From a virus: 21,338 nucleotides of DNA. Both the position numbers and the translations under genes were made by a program. Positions within the stretch are counted from its first letter, which is position 1. The number at the start of each line of letters is the position of its first letter. Below, piece by piece: positions 2,910 through 20,996 of the stretch. Below the pieces are notes generated by a model. It was not told the origin of the DNA. It did no database searches and saw nothing but the letters and a program-made list of their open reading frames with translations. The DNA lies in the IMG/VR virus record IMGVR_UViG_3300017971_000836, positions 1 to 21,338 of that record. One strand, 5' to 3'.

Positions 2910-4759
2910 TACATACCCCCAGTTACAAATTTAGAATTACGACGATCAGGTGTATACGGTTTCATAAACTCATCTCCAGATTCCTCTCGCCATTGTTGTT
3001 CAAATTCATACGAAGCAAACTTTTCTAAAGCTGCTTTTATTCTATCTCGTTTACTAAAGCCCTTGGATAAGGATTGTAGATTCTTTAAGCGACGAGATAA
3101 CATTTCGGCTCGTTTTGTCCACCCAACCGTATCTTTATTATTACCATTGTCTTTGGCTTCTTGAGCCGATGCCTGTGCTATTGCCAGATCATCAGAGTAT
3201 CGTTCTGCGACTTTCGTTAAGGCTTTCGCTGTTACTTGTTTGTTACTTAGAATATATGGTATATTATCTACATCATCTTTCCAAGACAAATGAGTCTTTC
3301 TGTAGAATTCCAAAGCCGCTTGTTTCGACAGTAGATTCTGTTTCGGATTACCTTTAAACTTAGTTTGAGAATACAAAGTAGCTAGTTTTCCTAGATTCTG
3401 TTTAATCGGAGTCCCTATCTGATCCACAATCTTAGCGGCCATACCTGTAGCTTTTATGTCCTCATTGAAATTAGTCATCTGACCCGGAGTTAAATCCTTT
3501 TCGGGAGACTCTTTGGCCGGAGCAGAATGCGTTAATCCTAAATCAGCCAAAGAAGATTTTGTTCTGATAGTTTGTCCATTCATAGTCAGAATTAAGTCGC
3601 CGGTTGTTAAATCGCGAGTCACCAATGGGCCGGGTTCGTTGGTTCCTTTAACATAAGTTTTTATTTGTCTTAGGCCATCAGCAGATATAGCATCTGGTTT
3701 AGTCATCTGTTTAGTAATAATCTCTACATTCTCTCGATGGTGGGCAGCTTGTTTTTCCGCAACAGCAGCTTGGTTTGTTTGTCCCATATCCAGTAACATA
3801 GTGGCTCTATTTTGGGCTTCGTCTGCTTCTTCTTGATGGTAATTTAACTGTCCTTGCGGAGTGAAAAACGCCTCATGTTGCTTAATCTGTTTCTCAAGAA
3901 CTTTAATTTCTCGATTCGCAATAGCAACATCCTTCATGTGTTTACCTTTATGTTTATTCTTAGTAGAAGCAACGAAGGATTTAAGTTCTTTGTGCTTGCC
4001 TCTCAAGGCTTCTATGTTTTTCTGAACCACTCTATTACGATCATCATATTTAGCTGCAAGCGTGGCTAAGCCCGGATAGATTTTAGTTAAATCATTAGCT
4101 GAAATAAGTACGGGATTTCCATTTTTATCAACAGGAATGTTATTCTGTATGTCCGCAATCTTAGGATTATTCTGATTTAGATACGAAATTAATTCTTGTT
4201 TACCATTCTCAAGTAAATCATTACCAGCCAATGCACTAAGGTCTACCTGTCTCGGCGTACTTCTATCTCGAATCTTACGTGCTTCGTCTCGAACCTTAAC
4301 TAATTCATTCTTAGTTTTCTCAAGATTTTGTTTATGCATGGCGGTTCGTTCTGCCGCTGCAACTTCTGCTCTAGCATCTGTATTCTCGGCTATCTGTTGG
4401 GCATGTTGCTGATTCTCAAAGTTCATTACGTCGATTACAGAATTACGATCATTCCGTATTTTATTCTGTTTCTGTGTCTCTTTGAACTGTTTATCCGCCA
4501 ATAGGTAATTTTTTTCTGCGTTTTCCAGATCGGCCCGTAACCTAGTGACTGCTCGTTGTTCGCCACGCTTGGATAACTCTAAGTTATGCATTGCCATTTC
4601 TTTATTGAACTGCTGCAACTCCAACTGGCTTTGGAGTCGGGTATTCTCCCGTTCTTGCTGAGCCGCAGCAGCTTGATGTTTAGCATCCCATTGTTGGGAG
4701 TCTAATAAAAGTCTATTAAACTCCCTAAATCCTTCTCTCAATGGTTCGTATATTGTCAT
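2909..4759 (-). CDS. Coiled-coil internal virion-like protein (616 aa)
   Basis: This 616-residue protein begins MTIYEPLREGFREFNRLLLD. Roughly its first 330 residues are rich in Gln, Glu, Lys and Ala with heptad-like spacing, which suggests long coiled coils. The middle (about 370-420) is less helical (a GDLILTMNGQTIRT stretch) and the C-terminal third returns to charged helices, ending VTGGM. No signal peptide or clear membrane segment was seen. The start lies two bases after the upstream stop, with GGAG in that gene's last codons as ribosome binding site, and its own stop overlaps the next start as TAATG, so the three large genes are probably co-translated. By position and composition it resembles internal core or ejection proteins of short-tailed phages (the T7 gp14-16 type of role). 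I cannot assign it to a family from sequence alone. Confidence 0.85.
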   Translation of the reverse strand: MTIYEPLREGFREFNRLLLDSQQWDAKHQAAAAQQERENTRLQSQLELQQFNKEMAMHNLELSKRGEQRAVTRLRADLENAEKNYLLADKQFKETQKQNKIRNDRNSVIDVMNFENQQHAQQIAENTDARAEVAAAERTAMHKQNLEKTKNELVKVRDEARKIRDRSTPRQVDLSALAGNDLLENGKQELISYLNQNNPKIADIQNNIPVDKNGNPVLISANDLTKIYPGLATLAAKYDDRNRVVQKNIEALRGKHKELKSFVASTKNKHKGKHMKDVAIANREIKVLEKQIKQHEAFFTPQGQLNYHQEEADEAQNRATMLLDMGQTNQAAVAEKQAAHHRENVEIITKQMTKPDAISADGLRQIKTYVKGTNEPGPLVTRDLTTGDLILTMNGQTIRTKSSLADLGLTHSAPAKESPEKDLTPGQMTNFNEDIKATGMAAKIVDQIGTPIKQNLGKLATLYSQTKFKGNPKQNLLSKQAALEFYRKTHLSWKDDVDNIPYILSNKQVTAKALTKVAERYSDDLAIAQASAQEAKDNGNNKDTVGWTKRAEMLSRRLKNLQSLSKGFSKRDRIKAALEKFASYEFEQQWREESGDEFMKPYTPDRRNSKFVTGGM

Positions 4760-4760
4760 G

Positions 4761-7700
4761 TTATACTCCCTCTATTACAGGATTCGCCATCCACAATTGT
4801 TTCCGTTTCTTCTTTTCCTCGTCGGTTAATCCTGCTTCTATTAAGTTCGACAGTATTCCGGAATTAATTGCTCGTGTTCCGGTAGCCATCCTCTGAAGAT
4901 CACTCATCGGATCTTCCTGACCCGCCGATGAACTAAATAAATCAGCTTGCGGGCTAGTCGGAGGACTAGTAGCTCCAGCACCAGTATCATCGTCACCCGG
5001 TGGGATAGTAATGGGTGGTATTCCACCTTGATCTTCTATTTTATTAGTAATTACCTCTAAAGCCCCTCCGGGAGTAAATACTTCATATGTGGGAGGGCCA
5101 TCAGGTGGAGGCATCTCCAACCCACCGCCGGTATTAGTTTTCTCTTCGAGATCCTCTAACGTTAACGGAGGAGGTGCAATTCCAGAAGTTACAATCGGAT
5201 CTCTAACTCCGGGAATACGATTAGGCTGACCGTTCTCGTCCACAGTACTTATACCCGTTGCAACTTGAGCCAAAGTTTCTTCAGGAGATACGTCTTTTTC
5301 CTTAATTAACTCCTCAAATGGGCTTCCAATAGGATCAGGTCTGTACTCCCGATCTTCTGGAGTAGTACCACCTAAATATGGGCCGCTTAAATCTTCAATG
5401 GAAAGATTCGTAGGTTGAAGCGCATTATCTATAACCGTCGGAAGACCGCTAGAATCTATACCTGTTACGTTTTCAATAGGATCTGTCCTATAGGCAGGTT
5501 GATCAAAAGGAGCACTTTCAGGATAATCCCTGTATTCCCTGTCTTCGGCTGGCGTTTCGGCCAAATAAGGCCCACCTAATTCCTCTATGGACGGTGGTGT
5601 AAGGGCTTGATCAACATTAGTACTCAAACCACTTGGCGCAGTACCAGTAACATTCTGAATGGCATTTGGAACGGGTTCCCCCATAATAGGAGCTTGGATA
5701 GCAGTGGGAGAATATTCCGGTACGGGATCTGGAGTCGTTAGATAAGGCCCACCTAATTCTTCAATCGTAGGTAATGGAAGCGGTTCAACGCCCCCAGTTA
5801 CAGTTTCTACATCCGGAATATTAATATTTTCTATTGGTTCCTGCACCACGCCCATTGGCCCAGTAGGAGCCTGCGCTAAATTCTCTTGTTCGTGGGTGAA
5901 ATTATAATCACCGCCTTGAATTAACTGACCTTCGTCCATAGTAAAATCTTGAATGCCAGCGCCTATACCATATCCAGTATCAGTATTAGCTAATCTAGCT
6001 AAATCAGTTTTTGTTGTGGGAATAGTAGCCCCTTCTTGTGCTAATCCAATATCTCCGGGGGCGGCCCCAACTTCTAATGCGGAAGGAGCAATATCACCCG
6101 GCTCTGCGCTTGTCGTAGTTCCAGATTCCTTTAATGTATCTCCGGTAGACATATCACCAATTCCAATACTGTTCATTATGTTTTCACCGGCTTGTTTGAA
6201 ACCCTCTCCAACTCTATCCATGAATCCTAACTCTTCGCCTGCGGCATCAACCGGAACAGGACTTACAGCAGGTGTCGTTTCCATTCCAAGGGCACCTTTA
6301 GCTTCATTTAATACAGCACCACCGGCAGAGCCAGCTACGTTAGTTCCAACATTAATTGCGGCATCCTTTAGAGTACCACTTAATGATACATCTTCACCTT
6401 GTAATGCAGAAATACCTGCATTTCCTACTGTTTTAACTAAACCTTCTCCAATATCTCCTGCGATAGTACCGGGTACACCGCCAATACCACTTTCCAAACC
6501 AGTCCCAATACCTCTAGCAAGAGTACCTACGGCACTTTGTCCGGCACCAACTGCTGCATTCTGAAGTATTTCGCCTAAACTACCCTCTCCTGCTGCAACA
6601 CCTTGAAGCGCATTGTATGCTCCTCCAACGCCCATACCAGCCAATAAAGGACTACTTGCTCCGGCCGTGGCTGCCGTAATAACGCCACCTACTACCTTTG
6701 GTAGTATCTGTCCACCAACCACATCTGCCCAAGAATTTGAAGGTTCGTGATTAAGAGCTACATTTTGTCCGTGGCTACTTGTGTTTTGAAGCATTTTCAA
6801 AGAGTGGCCTAGATTATCCACATGAACAGGATTATTCAGATCTACCGTTTCATAAACATCTGGATTCAAAGCAGCTAAATTAGATACAATAGCACCCTCA
6901 GTTCCAAGTTCCCTCTGCAAGGCGGTCTGTTGAGCCATCTCTTGACGTTGTTGCCGATTGACAAAATCCTGTGCATTTCCGCCACTAGCCATGGATGCCA
7001 TTAATTCCCCACCAGTTTGACGAGAACGAGAGGCATTTAAAGCCTTATTAGTCTGTTCCTCTGTTAATCCTAATTTAGAAGCAATTCCGCGTACTTCTTC
7101 TATTTGTTGAGCTTTGGCTGGATCGTTTATGTCTATTCTATTTACATGAGAAGTCTGATCTCCAATCAACCCCGCAGCTTTCGCTACGGCTACGTTTTCT
7201 GCCCCAACATGAAAACCATCGCGACCAAACCCCCCTTTGCCTTGGGATTGAGATAGTGTCGTTTTCATATTTTGCGCTTGCGACACTAGTTCATTGGCTT
7301 CTCTGCCTCTACTCTGCGTGACCTTTTGTGCGGCACTTTTGGCCGCATGTTGCTGTTCTAATTCTTCACGACTTAATCTATTTGGATTAGCCGGATTGGC
7401 GCTAGTATTAGAAACCGGAGTAGTTGCATTTGGTAGTGCTGTGTTTGCTTGTTGCGCTGCTTGTTCTTGGGAGGTTCCTTTCTCTCTGGCACTAAAATAC
7501 TCCTCCATTTGCTGACCGTATTGGCCCGTAGTCCAACTATGTTTTTTACCACTATTTTTAGCAGCAGTAGCCCTAGGAATAATAGTTTTTTCAATCATAC
7601 TAGAATTAATTCCTAGAGATTTACCAAATTCCCTAACCTGATCTTCGAAACTTCCCGGTCTTTTATAACTCGGAGCTTGCGGTGTGGGCGTAGTTTTAGG

Positions 7701-11848: not shown

Positions 11849-14550
11849 TATTGCGTAGCCTGATCTCCTTTCCGTTCTATTCTGTATCTGATACCCCAAG
11901 CAATTGGTCTAAAACCTCTAGGTACGTTTGTGGTCGTAATAACAAACTCGAAACAATGACCCCAACCCGTACGGTTTTCATCGGTCACAATATTAATAAT
12001 TCGCTTAGCCCCAATATCTTGGTTAACGTTAATTGATACAATTGATGTTGCTGCCCACTCTACTCCTGCGTTTCCGTTAACTGCCATAGCTGCGGTTGTG
12101 TCTTCAAAAGAAACCTTTACACCGGTTAAATCATCCGTATCAACAAATGTGATACCACTACCAATTAACTCCTCGGTGTCTCCATAGTAATAAATATCAA
12201 GATAGTTTTGTGCCGATACTTCTTCGAATTTATGGGTTAACAATTTAAATTTTCGTATGGTAGTCTCGTCCCAAATATTACTACTTGGAAAGAAGTCTCC
12301 GGTCTTAACCCGCTGGGTGATTCCAGTACCGGCCCAACTAGTTCCATTTTCTAAATAAAGCATCACACCACTGGCGGTTCCGCCATAGTTTCTTCTCTGT
12401 CCCGATTCGTCTATGACCTCCCATGCAGATTGCGGGAAACTAGCCGTACCTGTTCTCTTTTCATACCATTTACGTCTCAACAGATCATAAACTAACCATT
12501 TATTGACTGTAGTCTGTCCGGATGAAGACGGAATCAAGAGATTATATTCTTTGTAGACGTTGTCAATCCATCCCCTACATTTATCTATGGCACTCCAATT
12601 TATGTATTCATCATTATTAGGATCAAAGAAATTCTCTAATCCACGAATGGAACTAATAGAAGCACCATCAAACATAACCGGCCCGGAAGCCGACATCCAA
12701 ATGGCAATATTTCTTGTGACACCTTCGGTGGGTTTTGAACTGGTGTTAACCTCTCCCGTAGCCAACGTTAATGGAGCAGGACATCCAATTGTTTTAGATA
12801 CTTCGTAAATAACAAACTCATCCGGAGTATCACCAACTAATAAATATGTTTCCGAATCTTTAAGAACCAGCAATAAACTCAACAAGTTAGATCCGAATCT
12901 GTTGTAGAGTGCCTTACCTGCGGTTATCTTTTCTTTACCACCAAAATATAATGATTGATCTCCGTTGTTTGAACTGTCTGCTCCGTTGAATACGTCGGGA
13001 GCATTGGCAGCCGAAAAGTCCATTCTATTGCCTTCATTACTAATTGAAGGAGCGCAAAGCATTAATCTCGTACCGTAATTAATACTGAAATCGTAGGCTT
13101 TCACGTCTTTTAGGGCCGGAATGCCAGTACAAAGATCAATATATACGTCAGACGACGTAGGAGGCACGACATTAGTACCTACTTTTATCTGATACGCATA
13201 CCCGAATGTGTTGAATAAAGTCCTAGGTTTTTCAGTTGTAGTGGGAATCCAGCTAATTAATCCGGACTGTTCGAACCCCGGCCCCGTACCCGCACTTGTG
13301 CCGTCTACCTGCACCCCAACGGCTTGGTATGCAGAACCGTCCCAATACTTAACCGTAATAGCAGAACCAGCAGCGGCTTCATTGATTAATGCCCCAAGCA
13401 TTTGCATACGAATACCAGCCATTTGTTCAGTAAACATAACTATTATTTCACCTGTGGTTTCCAACGATGTTAGTTTCCCACCAACAGGATTATCTTCGTC
13501 CGACGCCACGTTAACAGGTGCGGTGTAATCAATATATGCCGTGTCAGAACTGGTATTTTTTAATTGGAACTGTACGGGCTGCCGATAAACACCATCCCAT
13601 ACATTTTCGACATTTTGCAAAGCAGTATCAACAGAAATATTATAAATATCAGCCGTAGCCCCTGCACCGGATATTTGAATAAGATACGCATACAAGTATA
13701 AATCTTCATAATGTTTAAGTTTAACTGTGGTTTTCGTGTGATCAAAATAATACCATCCACTACTAGAGAGTCCGGATGTTTTGTCGCCTCCACTATAATC
13801 CGAAACAGCCGCCCACGACGATCCATTCCAATATTTAATTGTAAGTGTTCCGCCGGTAGAACCGCCATTAATATAAAATTTAATACCTTGAATTGGTCGA
13901 GTTGTCATTAACACCGCATAATCTTTTCCTGCGGTAGAGATTGTCATGGTTTCCGTAGTAATGTTACTGGTTAATTCTTCTGTGTAATCAACAGGATTAG
14001 TCGGATTCCAAGGCGACGAAGATCCATCATCATCTGCTGAAAATACAGCGGCGGGGGATTGCTCATCCCCACCAAATATCATAGCCTCTCTGCCGTTACA
14101 ATAGGCCATGTTTCCTTGGGGAGCATCGCTAAATCTACCCGTGAGTCCGTTTGCAGAATCTTGATAATAAGAATGAGCACTAGTATCTAAGCGATTCGTG
14201 GCATCAAACTCTCCCGTACTTCCTATATCGTTTCTATTTACGCGCAGTCTTCCTATTGTGTCGTTGTCTGCGTGGACAAAATTATAGGTCTTTTGTGTTC
14301 TGTCCGATCTTAATTGATGACCATTTGCTATATTATCGTAAGTAGCCAATGGCGTACCGTTAATAGCCGTATACCCGTTAACTCCTTCTAGACCAGAATC
14401 CTTATATCGCAGGTTTTCAAGTTTAGCATAGTTTTGAGGGCCGATCAAAGAGGGGTCTACGTCAGGTATCCATCGGCCATCAAATCTAAATTGTAAATCT
14501 TTCCAAGGATTATCTGGTACTTGAGGTAATTTTGTTTCAATCTTAGGCAC
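11848..14550 (-). CDS. Tail nozzle / P22 gp10-like stabilisation protein (900 aa)
   Basis: A large beta-rich protein. Its N-terminus (GPQNYAKLENLRYKDSGLEG, then VNGYTAING) resembles the opening of tail nozzle proteins, where a 'path' segment leads into a beta-propeller. The later part (about 540-800: LYFGGKEKITAGKAL, a DSETYLLVGD strand, ASGPVMFDGASI, NKWLVYDLLRRKWYE) has the blade-like pattern of P22 gp10 / T7 gp12-type nozzles. Between them sit two similar domains marked by TIKYWNGSSW (near 237-246) and TVKYWDGSAY (near 399-408). The start is GTG at 14550 with GGAGG five bases upstream, overlapping the adaptor gene by eight bases. It lies after the adaptors and before the fibre, as expected for a tail hub. 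Assignment rests on order, size and fold-like pattern, not on a conserved catalytic motif. Confidence 0.72.
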   Translation of the reverse strand: MPKIETKLPQVPDNPWKDLQFRFDGRWIPDVDPSLIGPQNYAKLENLRYKDSGLEGVNGYTAINGTPLATYDNIANGHQLRSDRTQKTYNFVHADNDTIGRLRVNRNDIGSTGEFDATNRLDTSAHSYYQDSANGLTGRFSDAPQGNMAYCNGREAMIFGGDEQSPAAVFSADDDGSSSPWNPTNPVDYTEELTSNITTETMTISTAGKDYAVLMTTRPIQGIKFYINGGSTGGTLTIKYWNGSSWAAVSDYSGGDKTSGLSSSGWYYFDHTKTTVKLKHYEDLYLYAYLIQISGAGATADIYNISVDTALQNVENVWDGVYRQPVQFQLKNTSSDTAYIDYTAPVNVASDEDNPVGGKLTSLETTGEIIVMFTEQMAGIRMQMLGALINEAAAGSAITVKYWDGSAYQAVGVQVDGTSAGTGPGFEQSGLISWIPTTTEKPRTLFNTFGYAYQIKVGTNVVPPTSSDVYIDLCTGIPALKDVKAYDFSINYGTRLMLCAPSISNEGNRMDFSAANAPDVFNGADSSNNGDQSLYFGGKEKITAGKALYNRFGSNLLSLLLVLKDSETYLLVGDTPDEFVIYEVSKTIGCPAPLTLATGEVNTSSKPTEGVTRNIAIWMSASGPVMFDGASISSIRGLENFFDPNNDEYINWSAIDKCRGWIDNVYKEYNLLIPSSSGQTTVNKWLVYDLLRRKWYEKRTGTASFPQSAWEVIDESGQRRNYGGTASGVMLYLENGTSWAGTGITQRVKTGDFFPSSNIWDETTIRKFKLLTHKFEEVSAQNYLDIYYYGDTEELIGSGITFVDTDDLTGVKVSFEDTTAAMAVNGNAGVEWAATSIVSINVNQDIGAKRIINIVTDENRTGWGHCFEFVITTTNVPRGFRPIAWGIRYRIERKGDQATQ

Positions 14551-15196
14551 CAGTTCCTCCCTTCTGCGGAACTCTAAAACTACCTACAGAATCTACTTCC
14601 CTTACGTGCTTATCCGTTCTTTCAAAATTAAGATCATTATAGAACTGAGACATCATGGAAGTCGCTTCTGCAAACTTTTGATCTTTTAATTTAGCTCGGG
14701 CTATCGCATAGTATATCGGTAAATGTTGATATTCATCCGCTAAATCTGTTATGTCGTCCGTTTCCGTGGCGTATAATAAGGTTATTTTAGCGCCAGCCGC
14801 AACTATGGTTGCGTTTGCCACAGGCCAAACGTATATATTTCTATTATGTAAACAGTAGTATTTAGGCGCACCACTGGTAAAAGTTTTAACGTTCCCCAAT
14901 TGTCTAGGATGAATCTTAATTAACCCTTTATAATTTGTAGACCCATCATTGTAGATTGCCGCATAAGGTTCGATCACGTTTGCAATCCAAGTTTCATCAC
15001 TAGAAGTGTATGATAATTGATTCGCAACAAGAGGACTAATATCATCCTCCGCCTCAACCATTAGAGTTTTAGAGGCAACGATTTTAGTACCTTCCTGTAG
15101 CCAATATGTAATTTCTGCATCTGTCCAAAACTGCGGACTCGTCTCATTTAGGACACCCCTAACCTGAGTTATTGCATTTGCTAAAGTTATTGCCAT
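14543..15196 (-). CDS. Head-tail adaptor-like protein 2 (217 aa)
   Basis: The N-terminus ITQVRGVLNETSPQFWTDAE followed by ITYWLQEG matches the recurring pattern of phage adaptor proteins (helix, then W-T/S-D-A-E-I-x-x-W/Y-I/L). A beta-rich middle (PYAAIYND, IKIHPRQLG, APKYYCLHNRNIYVWP) and a C-terminal helical bundle (IYYAIARAKLKDQKFAEA) follow. These proteins form the ring that connects portal to tail in short-tailed phages. Its Shine-Dalgarno, CAGGAG, lies inside the last codons of the preceding adaptor gene, and its 3' end overlaps the nozzle start by eight bases. It is similar in size and layout to its upstream neighbour, so the two probably form successive parts of the neck. Confidence 0.75.
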   Translation of the reverse strand: MAITLANAITQVRGVLNETSPQFWTDAEITYWLQEGTKIVASKTLMVEAEDDISPLVANQLSYTSSDETWIANVIEPYAAIYNDGSTNYKGLIKIHPRQLGNVKTFTSGAPKYYCLHNRNIYVWPVANATIVAAGAKITLLYATETDDITDLADEYQHLPIYYAIARAKLKDQKFAEATSMMSQFYNDLNFERTDKHVREVDSVGSFRVPQKGGTGA

Positions 15197-16339: not shown

Positions 16340-17140
16340 TTAACTAATAATTGCGTGTCCGTAGAACCTAATAATAAACTGTCCTGCTGTATAAGTTCCT
16401 TCATTTGCGGCAGTATCGCCTTCTGTCAGATAGATGTAATCGTTAGCCGTAAATCCGCAGGTTTCTAAAACATCTACAGATCCAGCAGTTACAGTACCCT
16501 GATCGAACTCCGAAGCACCAGCCGCACCATCGTATTCAAGTGCATCACTCGAATTAAAAGCAATATCAATATCCGCAGTAATGTTGGTTCCGGCAGGGAG
16601 TTCTAAACACATTCTTTCCATTCGATAAACGATACCATAAGTACTCGTAACATACCGCCCAATATAAGCCGCACCGCCAGCACCCAATCCGATAACATCA
16701 TCGGCAGCCGTACCTTTGGCTTTTAGGCCCGTAAGGTCAATATGAATCTCTGTAATAATATGACCGCCTACCGTACCGTGATAAGTTCTTGGTGCGAAAG
16801 CAGTCCCAATAGCACCGGGGCCATGTTCAGCAGTCGCCAGTGTGCCGGGAATAGTAGTGATTGCTTGCGTACCGTTTATAGTTCCAGTTGCTACTAAGTC
16901 TCCGCCAAGATTTAGAATACCGCCGGAATCTAAAATAGCGGTTTTGCCGGATGTATTATTAGTGGCTGTTGCTCCAGCCAACGCATTAATCTCTGCGGTT
17001 GTGGCCGTAACACCATCCATCTTATTTAGTTCTGAGGCTGTTGCTGTAACCAACGTCGGTTTATTTCCAAAACCCTTCTTACTTCCGTGAGCCGTCGGCA
17101 AATACAACTTTTTAACTCTCACTTTGTTAAAACTTGCCAT
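16340..17140 (-). CDS. Head-fibre-like structural protein (266 aa)
   Basis: Residues about 32-55 contain TATASELNKMDGVTATTAEI followed by NALAG, the 'A-x-E-L/I-N' repeat widely found in phage fibre and head-fibre proteins near their attachment stem. A beta-rich domain follows, with ITEIHIDLTGLKAKGTAADD near 130-148 and VYRMERMCLELPAGTNITAD near 169-188, ending EGTYTAGQFIIRFYGHAIIS. That ending resembles the closing motif of capsid head fibres. AAGGAG precedes the ATG, and the gene overlaps the CxxCxxCC gene by 14 bases. It sits between capsid and adaptors, so a capsid-surface fibre is likelier than a tail fibre. Confidence 0.72.
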   Translation of the reverse strand: MASFNKVRVKKLYLPTAHGSKKGFGNKPTLVTATASELNKMDGVTATTAEINALAGATATNNTSGKTAILDSGGILNLGGDLVATGTINGTQAITTIPGTLATAEHGPGAIGTAFAPRTYHGTVGGHIITEIHIDLTGLKAKGTAADDVIGLGAGGAAYIGRYVTSTYGIVYRMERMCLELPAGTNITADIDIAFNSSDALEYDGAAGASEFDQGTVTAGSVDVLETCGFTANDYIYLTEGDTAANEGTYTAGQFIIRFYGHAIIS

Positions 17141-17402
17141 CCCATTTCTCCTTATAGCTGCATATTACGTCTGTCATATCTGGTTGTTGTTGTCTACAAA
17201 CTTTAGGTCTATTTTCATAAATAGAACAACCTTCTTTTGTGATATATTGACATGAACAAGGAACCACAAACAAATAAACCCTATCATCCTCTAACATATC
17301 TAAACCAAAGTTTTTGTAGAATTCTATATAATCTTTATCAAACTTTCCTACGGGAATCGTAAGATAATGACAACATACCTGACAGTCTATACAACTTTTC
17401 AT
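17127..17402 (-). CDS. YkgJ/FliB-like CxxCxxCC metal-binding protein (91 aa)
   Basis: This short protein carries C4-x2-C7-x2-CC (C10, C11) at the N-terminus and a second group C49-x-C51, C59 and C69, in the arrangement CSIYENRPKVCR. That series, CxxCxxCC then C-x-I-Y-x-x-R-P-x-x-C-R, is diagnostic of the putative zinc- or iron-chelating family (YkgJ) that also contains the flagellin N-methylase FliB. At 91 residues it is close to a bare metal-binding core. Its ATG overlaps the stop of the preceding cysteine-rich gene as TAATG, so translation is likely coupled. Its place among virion genes is unusual. Possible roles include lysine modification or metal-cluster chemistry on a virion protein; the sequence does not decide. 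Confidence 0.85.
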   Translation of the reverse strand: MKSCIDCQVCCHYLTIPVGKFDKDYIEFYKNFGLDMLEDDRVYLFVVPCSCQYITKEGCSIYENRPKVCRQQQPDMTDVICSYKEKWDGKF

Positions 17403-19186: not shown

Positions 19187-20299
19187 TTACACGTTATGAG
19201 AAGCAGCATAGGAGGTAATAACCATCTTACCATAATCCTTGCTGTTGAACAGGGTAGACTTTATACCGAAGATACTACCAACAGAGATGGCCTTCTCATT
19301 ACCAAAGTCATCAGTCTGTTCATACCAAGACATGATATTGTCTTTACCCATGCGCTCTTTCTCGATTCCGTCATAGGCCGAACCAAGAGCGAACACACCA
19401 GCCTGAGCGCCCAAGAACAGGTTACGCCGCACAGTACTAGCCGCAGCACCGTCAAAGACAGGCAGATAGGTAGATTCCATTAGGATACATCCATTATAAA
19501 CACCCAAGGCACCCGTAAAGATCGGGTTCTTCAGGCCGCGTTTATTCGCATACATCTGGATCGTGGGCCAATCGGTGTAAGCACTATTAGCAACGTCCAA
19601 ACGAACATCGGTCACGCTATAAGGATGAAGGATGACAACATAATATTCCCCACCTTCGATCTGAGCCGGTCGAATAGGCGGAGTCAGAGTCTTAGCAGCT
19701 TCTTTCGCATAGTCAATGTCAGCTAACTGAATCTGATCGTTGTTTCCAAGGGAAGCCTCGTCAGTAGCGATGACACCAGTAGAGGCCACATCACCAGAGA
19801 TGATGTAATGGTCGCTATCCGGATCTGTCGGGGTATTACCGGCGAAACTAAACGTGGTTTTACCACACAGATAATTGAACAGATAGGTATCAAACTTACC
19901 GGCGAACCAATCAGCCAGATTACCTTTAGCATCCATTCTCATGTCGTGCAGCGTTCTCTGCTGAGACATCCTACGGAAAGCATGGGCGTTCCGAAGCTGG
20001 TCAATTGCAACGGTATCTTGGTAGTATACCAGAGCTTCTTCATTGTCCCGCATACGGTTATCGCCGGTCACGCCTTCTCCGGTCATCTGCATCAGCAGCT
20101 CATATTTAATGGTATCACCAGCAGATTTCTCCAGTTCAGTCAGTCTCTGGATGATCGCTCGTTTACCAGAACCCATCAGCTTATTAGCCATCGTGGGTTT
20201 CAGAGCCTCCCGCATCGTCACGGTAGACCAAAGTTTTACAGTTTGGGCATCATTAGTACCCTGTAAGTTATTGAAATCGTTTAAGATATTCACTCCCAT
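19187..20299 (-). CDS. Major capsid protein, N4-gp56 family (exon 2 of a split gene)
   Basis: The sequence matches the N4-gp56-type HK97-fold capsid pattern: AQTVKLWSTVTMREALK, then LEKSAGDTIKYELLMQMTGE with GVTGDNRMRDNEEALVYYQD, TVAIDQLRNAHAF, MSQQRT and LADWFAGKFDTYLFNYLCGK. It forms the icosahedral shell. The ATG at 20299 has no Shine-Dalgarno, unlike nearly all other genes here, and directly follows group I intron core sequence. I therefore infer that the real start is the ATG at 20996 and that exon 2 begins at GGA (20296), giving a 378-residue product (9 + 369). The unspliced reading from 20299 is given as the span because it is what a simple gene caller reports. The family is secure; the splice model is strong but not tested. 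Confidence 0.9.
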   Translation of the reverse strand: MGVNILNDFNNLQGTNDAQTVKLWSTVTMREALKPTMANKLMGSGKRAIIQRLTELEKSAGDTIKYELLMQMTGEGVTGDNRMRDNEEALVYYQDTVAIDQLRNAHAFRRMSQQRTLHDMRMDAKGNLADWFAGKFDTYLFNYLCGKTTFSFAGNTPTDPDSDHYIISGDVASTGVIATDEASLGNNDQIQLADIDYAKEAAKTLTPPIRPAQIEGGEYYVVILHPYSVTDVRLDVANSAYTDWPTIQMYANKRGLKNPIFTGALGVYNGCILMESTYLPVFDGAAASTVRRNLFLGAQAGVFALGSAYDGIEKERMGKDNIMSWYEQTDDFGNEKAISVGSIFGIKSTLFNSKDYGKMVITSYAASHNV

Positions 20300-20969
20300 T
20301 ACTGAGAGGCACGGACTATATCATCAGTTTCCTGTGGGGCGCTCGTGTCGGTCTTATTGGTAGACTCCTCAACCGTTAGTCTCTGAACCTTCGTAGATAC
20401 TTTTATGTCATTCTCTAAGCTTGGCTGCTGATTGCCCTCAACATTACTTGGTCGGGTTTCCAGCAATTCACCCCATTGTTTTCTAATATTCGTAGCGTCT
20501 TTTCCCCTATAATTCAACCCTCGCATTATTTCAGCAAGACGTTCTCGTATAGGTTCAAGAGGGTCAACCTGTCCTGGTTTTCCCCTAAGCAATGAATGAT
20601 AATAACCCGCAAGTAAAGCACACTCAGCCTGTGCTTTTTTGGATATAAGCATAGGATATAATAATTTTATCATATCTACGGCAGCATTATAATACACACT
20701 CATAACATAAGAATCGTCTGTATTTTTGCCCCTATGTGTTCTATGTTCTATATTCCATTTAGTCGGGAAATTGTTCTGGACCCATTCTATTAGTACCGGG
20801 TCATTATTACAAAAACGTAAACAAACTCTATAATAATATTTATTACGTCTCTTATCATACCCATTGCGAGTATACATTATTGAACCTTCACCATCTACTA
20901 ATCCTGCGAAATAAGCTAACTTCTCTTTATCATTCATAGCTTATCTCCTTAGACATATTAGGCTTTCTC
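20297..20969 (-). ncRNA. Group I self-splicing intron with embedded homing endonuclease
   Basis: Conserved core elements can be read in order on the minus strand: P (GAATTGCTGGAAACCC, from 20469), Q (CAATCAGCAGCCAAGC, 20434-20419), R (GGTTCAGAGACTA, 20389-20377) and S (GATGATATAGTCC, 20325-20313). P4 pairs TTGCTG with CAGCAG, and P7 pairs GACTA (20381-20377) with TAGTC (20318-20314), forming the guanosine-binding site. P1 pairs exon TTAGAT (20975-20970) with GTCTAA (20954-20949) and ends in U-G at the proposed 5' splice site. The 3' end TAATG at 20301-20297 resembles that of the T4 td intron. Splicing is autocatalytic in this class. P3 and P10 were not traced with confidence, and G20291 is an alternative in-frame 3' site. 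Confidence 0.9.
20299..20937 (-). CDS. LAGLIDADG homing endonuclease encoded in the intron (212 aa)
   Basis: Residues 7-20 (LAYFAGLVDGEGSI) are a clear LAGLIDADG motif, with the acidic residue at E17 as the likely metal-binding catalytic position. Only one motif is present, so the enzyme should act as a homodimer cutting an intronless capsid allele near the insertion point to drive intron spread. The DNA-binding part probably spans residues 1 to about 140. The tail (SNVEGNQQPSLENDIKVST and on, ending TDDIVRASQ) is translated intron core and is probably not part of the nuclease fold. AAGGAG seven bases before the ATG overlaps the intron guide sequence. The stop TAA lies in the intron's final bases. 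Confidence 0.88.
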   Translation of the reverse strand: MNDKEKLAYFAGLVDGEGSIMYTRNGYDKRRNKYYYRVCLRFCNNDPVLIEWVQNNFPTKWNIEHRTHRGKNTDDSYVMSVYYNAAVDMIKLLYPMLISKKAQAECALLAGYYHSLLRGKPGQVDPLEPIRERLAEIMRGLNYRGKDATNIRKQWGELLETRPSNVEGNQQPSLENDIKVSTKVQRLTVEESTNKTDTSAPQETDDIVRASQ

Positions 20970-20975
20970 ATCTAA
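20945..20975 (-). promoter_or_regulatory. Intron P1 helix overlapping the endonuclease ribosome binding site
   Basis: TTAGAT (exon end, 20975-20970) can pair with GTCTAA (20954-20949) through five Watson-Crick pairs and the splice-site U-G. The endonuclease Shine-Dalgarno AAGGAG (20950-20945) begins with the last two bases of that guide strand. Folding of P1 in the unspliced RNA, or ribosomes on the Shine-Dalgarno, could each hinder the other, so splicing and nuclease synthesis may compete. This competition is inferred from the overlap. Confidence 0.6.
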
Positions 20976-20996
20976 TGAAAAAGCAGTAACAGCCAT
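20970..20996 (-). CDS. Major capsid protein exon 1 (9 codons)
   Basis: ATG at 20996 opens MAVTAFSLD and is preceded by AAAGGAG (21010-21004) with a seven-base spacer, one of the best initiation sites in the window. Without splicing it would stop after 12 codons (MAVTAFSLDEKA). Ending the exon at T20970 gives a P1 with the required U-G pair, and joining to GGA at 20296 keeps the capsid frame (LD-GVNILNDF). An MAVT-type opening is also common among capsids of this family. A nine-codon exon is far too short for routine gene prediction. Confidence 0.78.

Follow-up and report, generated by a model that had tools for sequence, protein, structure and literature searches.

The capsid gene and its exons

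The window, that is, the whole stretch of 21,338 nt analyzed here (IMG/VR record IMGVR_UViG_3300017971_000836, positions 1 to 21,338), belongs to an uncultured tailed phage and carries the locus described below on its minus strand. The ORF at 20299-19187 encodes the major capsid protein. It matches the N4-gp56-like Phage_capsid_3 profile (PF13252) over the full length (E = 8.1e-51, positions 15-365) and phrog_334 (E = 3.1e-66), and the host gene is thus a phage major capsid gene, as originally predicted. A contig identical to the window (L001/L016) reaches further upstream, where its ORFs, read by eye, resemble the terminase large subunit, portal, and scaffold in the usual head-module order. 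Elsewhere in the window, the product of 14543-15196 (minus strand) is an SU10-type adaptor protein (PF24175, E = 4.7e-12), which hints at a short-tailed phage, and 17127-17402 (minus strand), among the structural genes, encodes a small protein whose CxxCxxCC domain is a putative chelator of zinc or iron (PF03692, E = 1.9e-7). In the genome_contigs scan, two distant capsids were found in Deltaproteobacteria/Desulfobacterales MAG contigs, a signal too weak for a host call.

Comparison with relatives divides the capsid gene into two exons. A Shine-Dalgarno motif AAGGAG at 21009-21004, which precedes the capsid ATG in most relatives, is followed by exon 1 at 20996-20979, six codons (ATGGCTGTTACTGCTTTT, MAVTAF) starting with the ATG at 20996 and matching the N terminus of intronless relatives. 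Exon 2, identified by PF13252, phrog_334, and the relatives, begins with GGTACTAATGATGCC (GTNDA) at 20260 and runs as GTNDAQTVK... to the stop codon at 19187. We collected 14 IMG/VR contigs with close capsid relatives and a wider set of 45 loci, in which close relatives keep the same N-terminal pattern. In 10 contigs (L002-L011), the capsid gene is uninterrupted and starts with MAVTAFGTNDAQ or the variants MAVTHFGTNDAQ, MAITAFGTNDAQ, and MAVTSFGTNDAQ; these intronless relatives read MAVTAF directly into GTNDAQTVK with nothing in between, and the intronless counterparts that were anticipated therefore exist. The capsid match of MW202512 (Manatee Spring) starts late, as seen in the annotation table.

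Because the intronless relatives have no counterpart of SLD or GVNILNDFNNLQ, the junction is placed after TTT (20979) and before GGT (20260), and both peptides are translations of intron sequence. The strong Shine-Dalgarno and short 5' exon of the original prediction are retained, with six codons instead of nine. Its splice sites shift: the 5' site after MAVTAFSLD is wrong by 9 nt, and the 3' site directly ahead of GVNILNDF is wrong by about 36 nt. Excision of the intron restores the host gene as it occurs in intronless relatives, and the spliced protein, MAVTAFGTNDAQ..., has 363 aa by this alignment rather than the 378 aa first proposed, a length equal to that of L002, L003, and L010. Exon 2 keeps an open frame, on which purifying selection is strong (dN/dS = 0.06 versus L002).

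Structure of the group I intron

The 718-nt intervening sequence at 20978-20261 is a group I intron, with boundaries set by intronless relatives and sister introns and a core recognized by Rfam. RF00028 matches 20545-20292 on the minus strand over its full model (1-253) with 80.4 bits (E = 2.6e-19) against a gathering score of 50, and it is the only Rfam family that reaches its gathering score in the window. The conserved core (P3-P8) is present, which confirms that a group I intron lies on this strand. A distant DNA search revealed partial similarity of the core to many isolated phages, the best being Proteus phage 3H10_20 (72% over ~184 nt), and the ribozyme is therefore of an ordinary phage type. 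When the core was searched in IMG/VR as an exact DNA pattern, only four contigs were returned, all already found by the capsid search.

Folding and the sister introns place a P1 hairpin at 20984-20962 (GCUUUU|UCAU...AUGA GAAAGC), whose first six bases are exon and whose U.G pair marks the 5' splice site. All eight introns, across three insertion sites, have a P1 with U.G where comparison puts the splice site. The sequence that extends the GCUUUU/GAAAGC helix varies and yet stays paired, being UCAU/AUGA in the window and UAG/CUA in L014. A 6-bp P1 is by itself not improbable, arising in ~25% of shuffles; because such a hairpin is not rare, it is the relatives and not P1 that fix the 5' site, and the weight of the predicted P1 lies in its recurrence, in eight introns, at the site fixed by comparison. 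The alternative P1 proposed earlier, UUAGAU/GUCUAA with U.G, is able to pair within the window, but its 5' strand, UUAGAU, is not conserved at the corresponding position of the sister introns.

At the other end, the intron closes with ...AACTTACAG, followed by GGT, and its last base, 20261, is the terminal omega-G. A terminal hairpin at 20292-20272, 3' of the Rfam core, is present in all seven introns checked; it carries paired changes in relatives (AAAUC/GAUUU in L013, AAACC/GGUUU in L014), and introns at the other sites have an equivalent hairpin. Inspection by eye for a P10 pairing with the 3' exon found none that was convincing or conserved. Not all group I introns have a P10.

The intron-encoded endonuclease

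As originally predicted, a LAGLIDADG gene lies inside the intron: an ORF of 212 codons at 20937-20299, preceded by its own Shine-Dalgarno AAGGAG (20950-20945) 7 nt ahead of the ATG, whose product is of the I-CreI type by both sequence and fold. Sequence matches include the I-CreI variant 3mx9 (E = 1.4e-5) and other I-CreI chains (E about 0.02-0.1), and the motif FAGLVDGEGS aligns to LAGFVDGDGS of I-CreI with the acid kept at the D20 position. An AlphaFold model of 160 aa (mean pLDDT 82, pTM 0.76) has the alpha-beta-beta-alpha-beta-beta-alpha fold, and Foldseek matched it to I-MsoI, I-CvuI, and I-CreI with E about 1e-7 (7.6e-08) and a probability of 1.00; the rmsd to the I-CreI group is 6-8 Å over full-length alignments. 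With Pfam LAGLIDADG_1, the window protein scores 14.7 bits, below the cut-off of 23.1, whereas the L012, L014, and L056 proteins score above it. By its predicted fold, the protein is an I-CreI/I-MsoI-like LAGLIDADG enzyme that probably acts as a homodimer. Among isolated phages, one weak match to it was found. The region 20302-20937 (minus strand) is filed under phrog_5046, "HNH endonuclease"; we reject that label for this protein on the basis of fold, and the family label may be wrong.

Selection is not uniform along the ORF. Between the window and L013, dN/dS is 0.10 for codons 1-110 and 0.07 for codons 110-150, whereas in the part of the ORF that overlaps the ribozyme, codons 150-190, dS is only 0.24 and dN/dS is 0.61. 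The endonucleases at site B (see below) follow the same pattern (0.21, 0.16, then 1.04). Codons 1 to ~150 are thus under purifying selection and the tail over the ribozyme is not. Because dN/dS is low before codon 150, and dS is low and the ratio high after it, the working protein comprises ~150 residues and the remainder is read-through of the ribozyme. The values for codons 150-190, together with a frame shift in L013, rule out the 212-aa ORF as one functional protein to its end, and the overlap of the ORF with the core is better explained by RNA constraint.

Sister introns and insertion sites

Rfam scans of the relatives combined with exon joining defined three insertion sites in this capsid gene. 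Site A, the boundary between codons 6 and 7, holds the introns of the window (718 nt), L012 (718 nt; junction offset by 1 nt, GCTTT|T), L013 (721 nt), and L014 (452 nt). Site B, after GGTGAT near codon 73, is occupied in L014 (830 nt), L056 (795 nt), and L059 (373 nt), and site C, between ATGCAGAT and G near codon 65, in L054/L055 by a 293-nt intron without an endonuclease (2677-2969). At all three sites, the introns end in G, have a P1 with U.G, and restore the conserved capsid frame on removal. The site-A sister introns (L012, L013, and L014) share 82-95% core identity with the window. In each of them, the sequence homologous to GTGAATATCTTAAACGATTTCAATAACTTACAG, which the original prediction took as the beginning of exon 2 in the window, belongs to the intron and has no corresponding open frame.

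Endonuclease genes across the introns of the relatives are intact, swapped, decayed, or absent. Decayed genes are found in L059 and at site A of L014, where a truncated window-type endonuclease runs for 37 aa before a stop. The L012 LAGLIDADG protein is 27% identical to that of the window. The cores of L012 and L014 site A are 95% identical and their LAGLIDADG proteins (4329-4766 and 3572-3685, respectively) are different, a comparison that suggests a recent endonuclease swap within an almost unchanged ribozyme. A further observation is that in L014 two sites of the single capsid gene each hold a group I intron (3530-3981 and 4183-5012); the endonuclease gene of the first is decayed, whereas the second has an intact LAGLIDADG gene.

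Introns occur in seven of the 34 distinct capsids placed on the tree, in a patchy distribution. The window capsid falls in a clade of five (starred on the tree; 97/93) whose other four members are intronless, and explaining where the site-A intron occurs on the capsid tree takes no fewer than two gains or losses. Between the window and L013, the capsid exons differ by 0.77 at synonymous sites (saturated; 66% DNA identity), whereas the synonymous difference of the endonucleases is lower, about 0.6, and the cores are 82% identical; because the capsid synonymous sites are saturated, the argument for transfer from these values is a modest one. Patchy sites with intact, swapped, decayed, or absent endonucleases are what homing and decay would be expected to leave, in line with the already known cycle in which intron invasion is followed by decay and replacement.

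All three insertion sites lie within the first quarter of the capsid gene. Three sites in one phage clade, two introns in L014, and the apparent recent endonuclease swap would fit this quarter being a repeated target of intron invasion, an idea to which we give about even odds. With only three sites, a hotspot cannot be claimed firmly.

Interpretation of the locus

Three other readings of the locus were weighed. If exon 1 were MAVTAFSLD and the intron ended at 20297, GVNILNDFNNLQ would be exon and the capsid would have 378 aa; the frame indeed stays open, and the P1-like UUAGAU/GUCUAA helix with U.G would mark the 5' site. The 15 extra residues, however, occur in none of the intronless relatives, and the supposed start of exon 2 is homologous to intron sequence of L012, L013, and L014, where it is out of frame, and forms the conserved terminal hairpin, making this reading very unlikely.

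It is extremely unlikely that there is no splicing and that a free-standing endonuclease precedes a 370-aa capsid with its own ATG at 20299. This ATG overlaps the endonuclease stop codon (TAATG), an arrangement that could couple translation, yet no Shine-Dalgarno lies directly ahead of it, the homologous stretch in L012-L014 lacks such an ATG-started open frame, a full group I core is present, and exon 1, together with the Shine-Dalgarno that precedes it, is conserved; a capsid start at ATG 20299 was accordingly rejected. Decay of endonuclease genes in some relatives (L014 site A and L059) could be taken to mean that the window intron is likewise a non-splicing remnant and the capsid gene broken. 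Against this, the window ribozyme fits the full model, its endonuclease is intact, the constraint on the open exon 2 relative to L002 is strong (dN/dS = 0.06), and an identical copy exists in another contig, so that we regard a remnant as improbable in the extreme.

The reading that we favor, with a probability of roughly 0.93, is that a mobile group I intron sits in the capsid gene directly behind codon 6, that its splicing yields the 363-aa capsid protein, and that its LAGLIDADG endonuclease is expected to home into intronless alleles. We infer splicing in cells, cleavage, and homing alongside the observed core, the comparative boundaries, the predicted endonuclease fold, purifying selection, and the patchy distribution. 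The ribozyme would fold in the transcript and the exon end GCUUUU would pair with the internal guide GAAAGC. Cleavage would take place 3' of the U in the U.G pair, and joining of TTT to GGT would give the 363-aa protein; the spliced junction would read ...ACTGCTTTT followed by GGTACTAATGATGCC, with AVTAFGTNDAQTVK as the N-terminal peptide of the capsid. The endonuclease, translated from its own ribosome-binding site, would be expected to cut intronless capsid alleles of co-infecting relatives at the same site, whereupon repair would copy the intron in.

Implications and comparison with known systems

Annotation that does not take out the intron by reference to relatives would get the N terminus of this capsid wrong, giving 370 or 378 aa instead of 363. 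A clade with intact, swapped, decayed, and endonuclease-free introns together with empty sites allows a direct comparison of homing, replacement, and loss, and, if introns do repeatedly invade the first quarter of the gene, this clade would be a natural system in which to observe the homing cycle within a structural gene that is highly expressed. Phage PhiPA3 is reported in PMC11620839 to have an intron endonuclease that acts in competition between co-infecting phages, and an endonuclease that homes into a capsid gene could do likewise.

The locus adds a clear Phage_capsid_3 case to a short list of phage capsid-gene introns, and its kind is already known. The original remark that a capsid host gene is less familiar was overstated, because such introns are on record in LittleE and Tuc2009 (PMC3706429). 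In LittleE, a Cluster J mycobacteriophage, splicing of a probable group I intron in the major capsid gene was proved by RT-PCR and protein sequencing (PMC3706429). Like the window intron, the LittleE intron carries a LAGLIDADG (I-CreI-related) gene, follows an exon that ends in U, itself ends in G, and leaves a product of the intronless length on removal (PMC3706429). However, the siphovirus LittleE has an HK97-type capsid and an endonuclease ORF on the opposite strand (PMC3706429), whereas the window has a Phage_capsid_3 capsid, a sense-strand ORF overlapping the core, several sites occupied within one phage clade, and splicing inferred from comparison. The lactococcal phage Tuc2009 also has an intron in its capsid gene, as cited in PMC3706429.

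More than one group I intron per gene is likewise indicated for Twort, by a title cited in PMC6669764, and in the Jug phages, which are rich in introns, several essential genes are interrupted, namely, terL, nrdD, and DNA polymerase (PMC12363816). The present clade resembles these phages in carrying multiple introns in an essential gene, which is the capsid gene here as opposed to terL, nrdD, and DNA polymerase in Jug. The endonuclease resembles the single-motif LAGLIDADG enzymes I-CreI, I-MsoI, and I-CvuI in its predicted fold, in the acid at the D20 position, and in being intron-encoded; unlike them, it shares only about 16-22% identity, has Glu (DGEG) for Asp (DGDG), and resides in a phage capsid gene.
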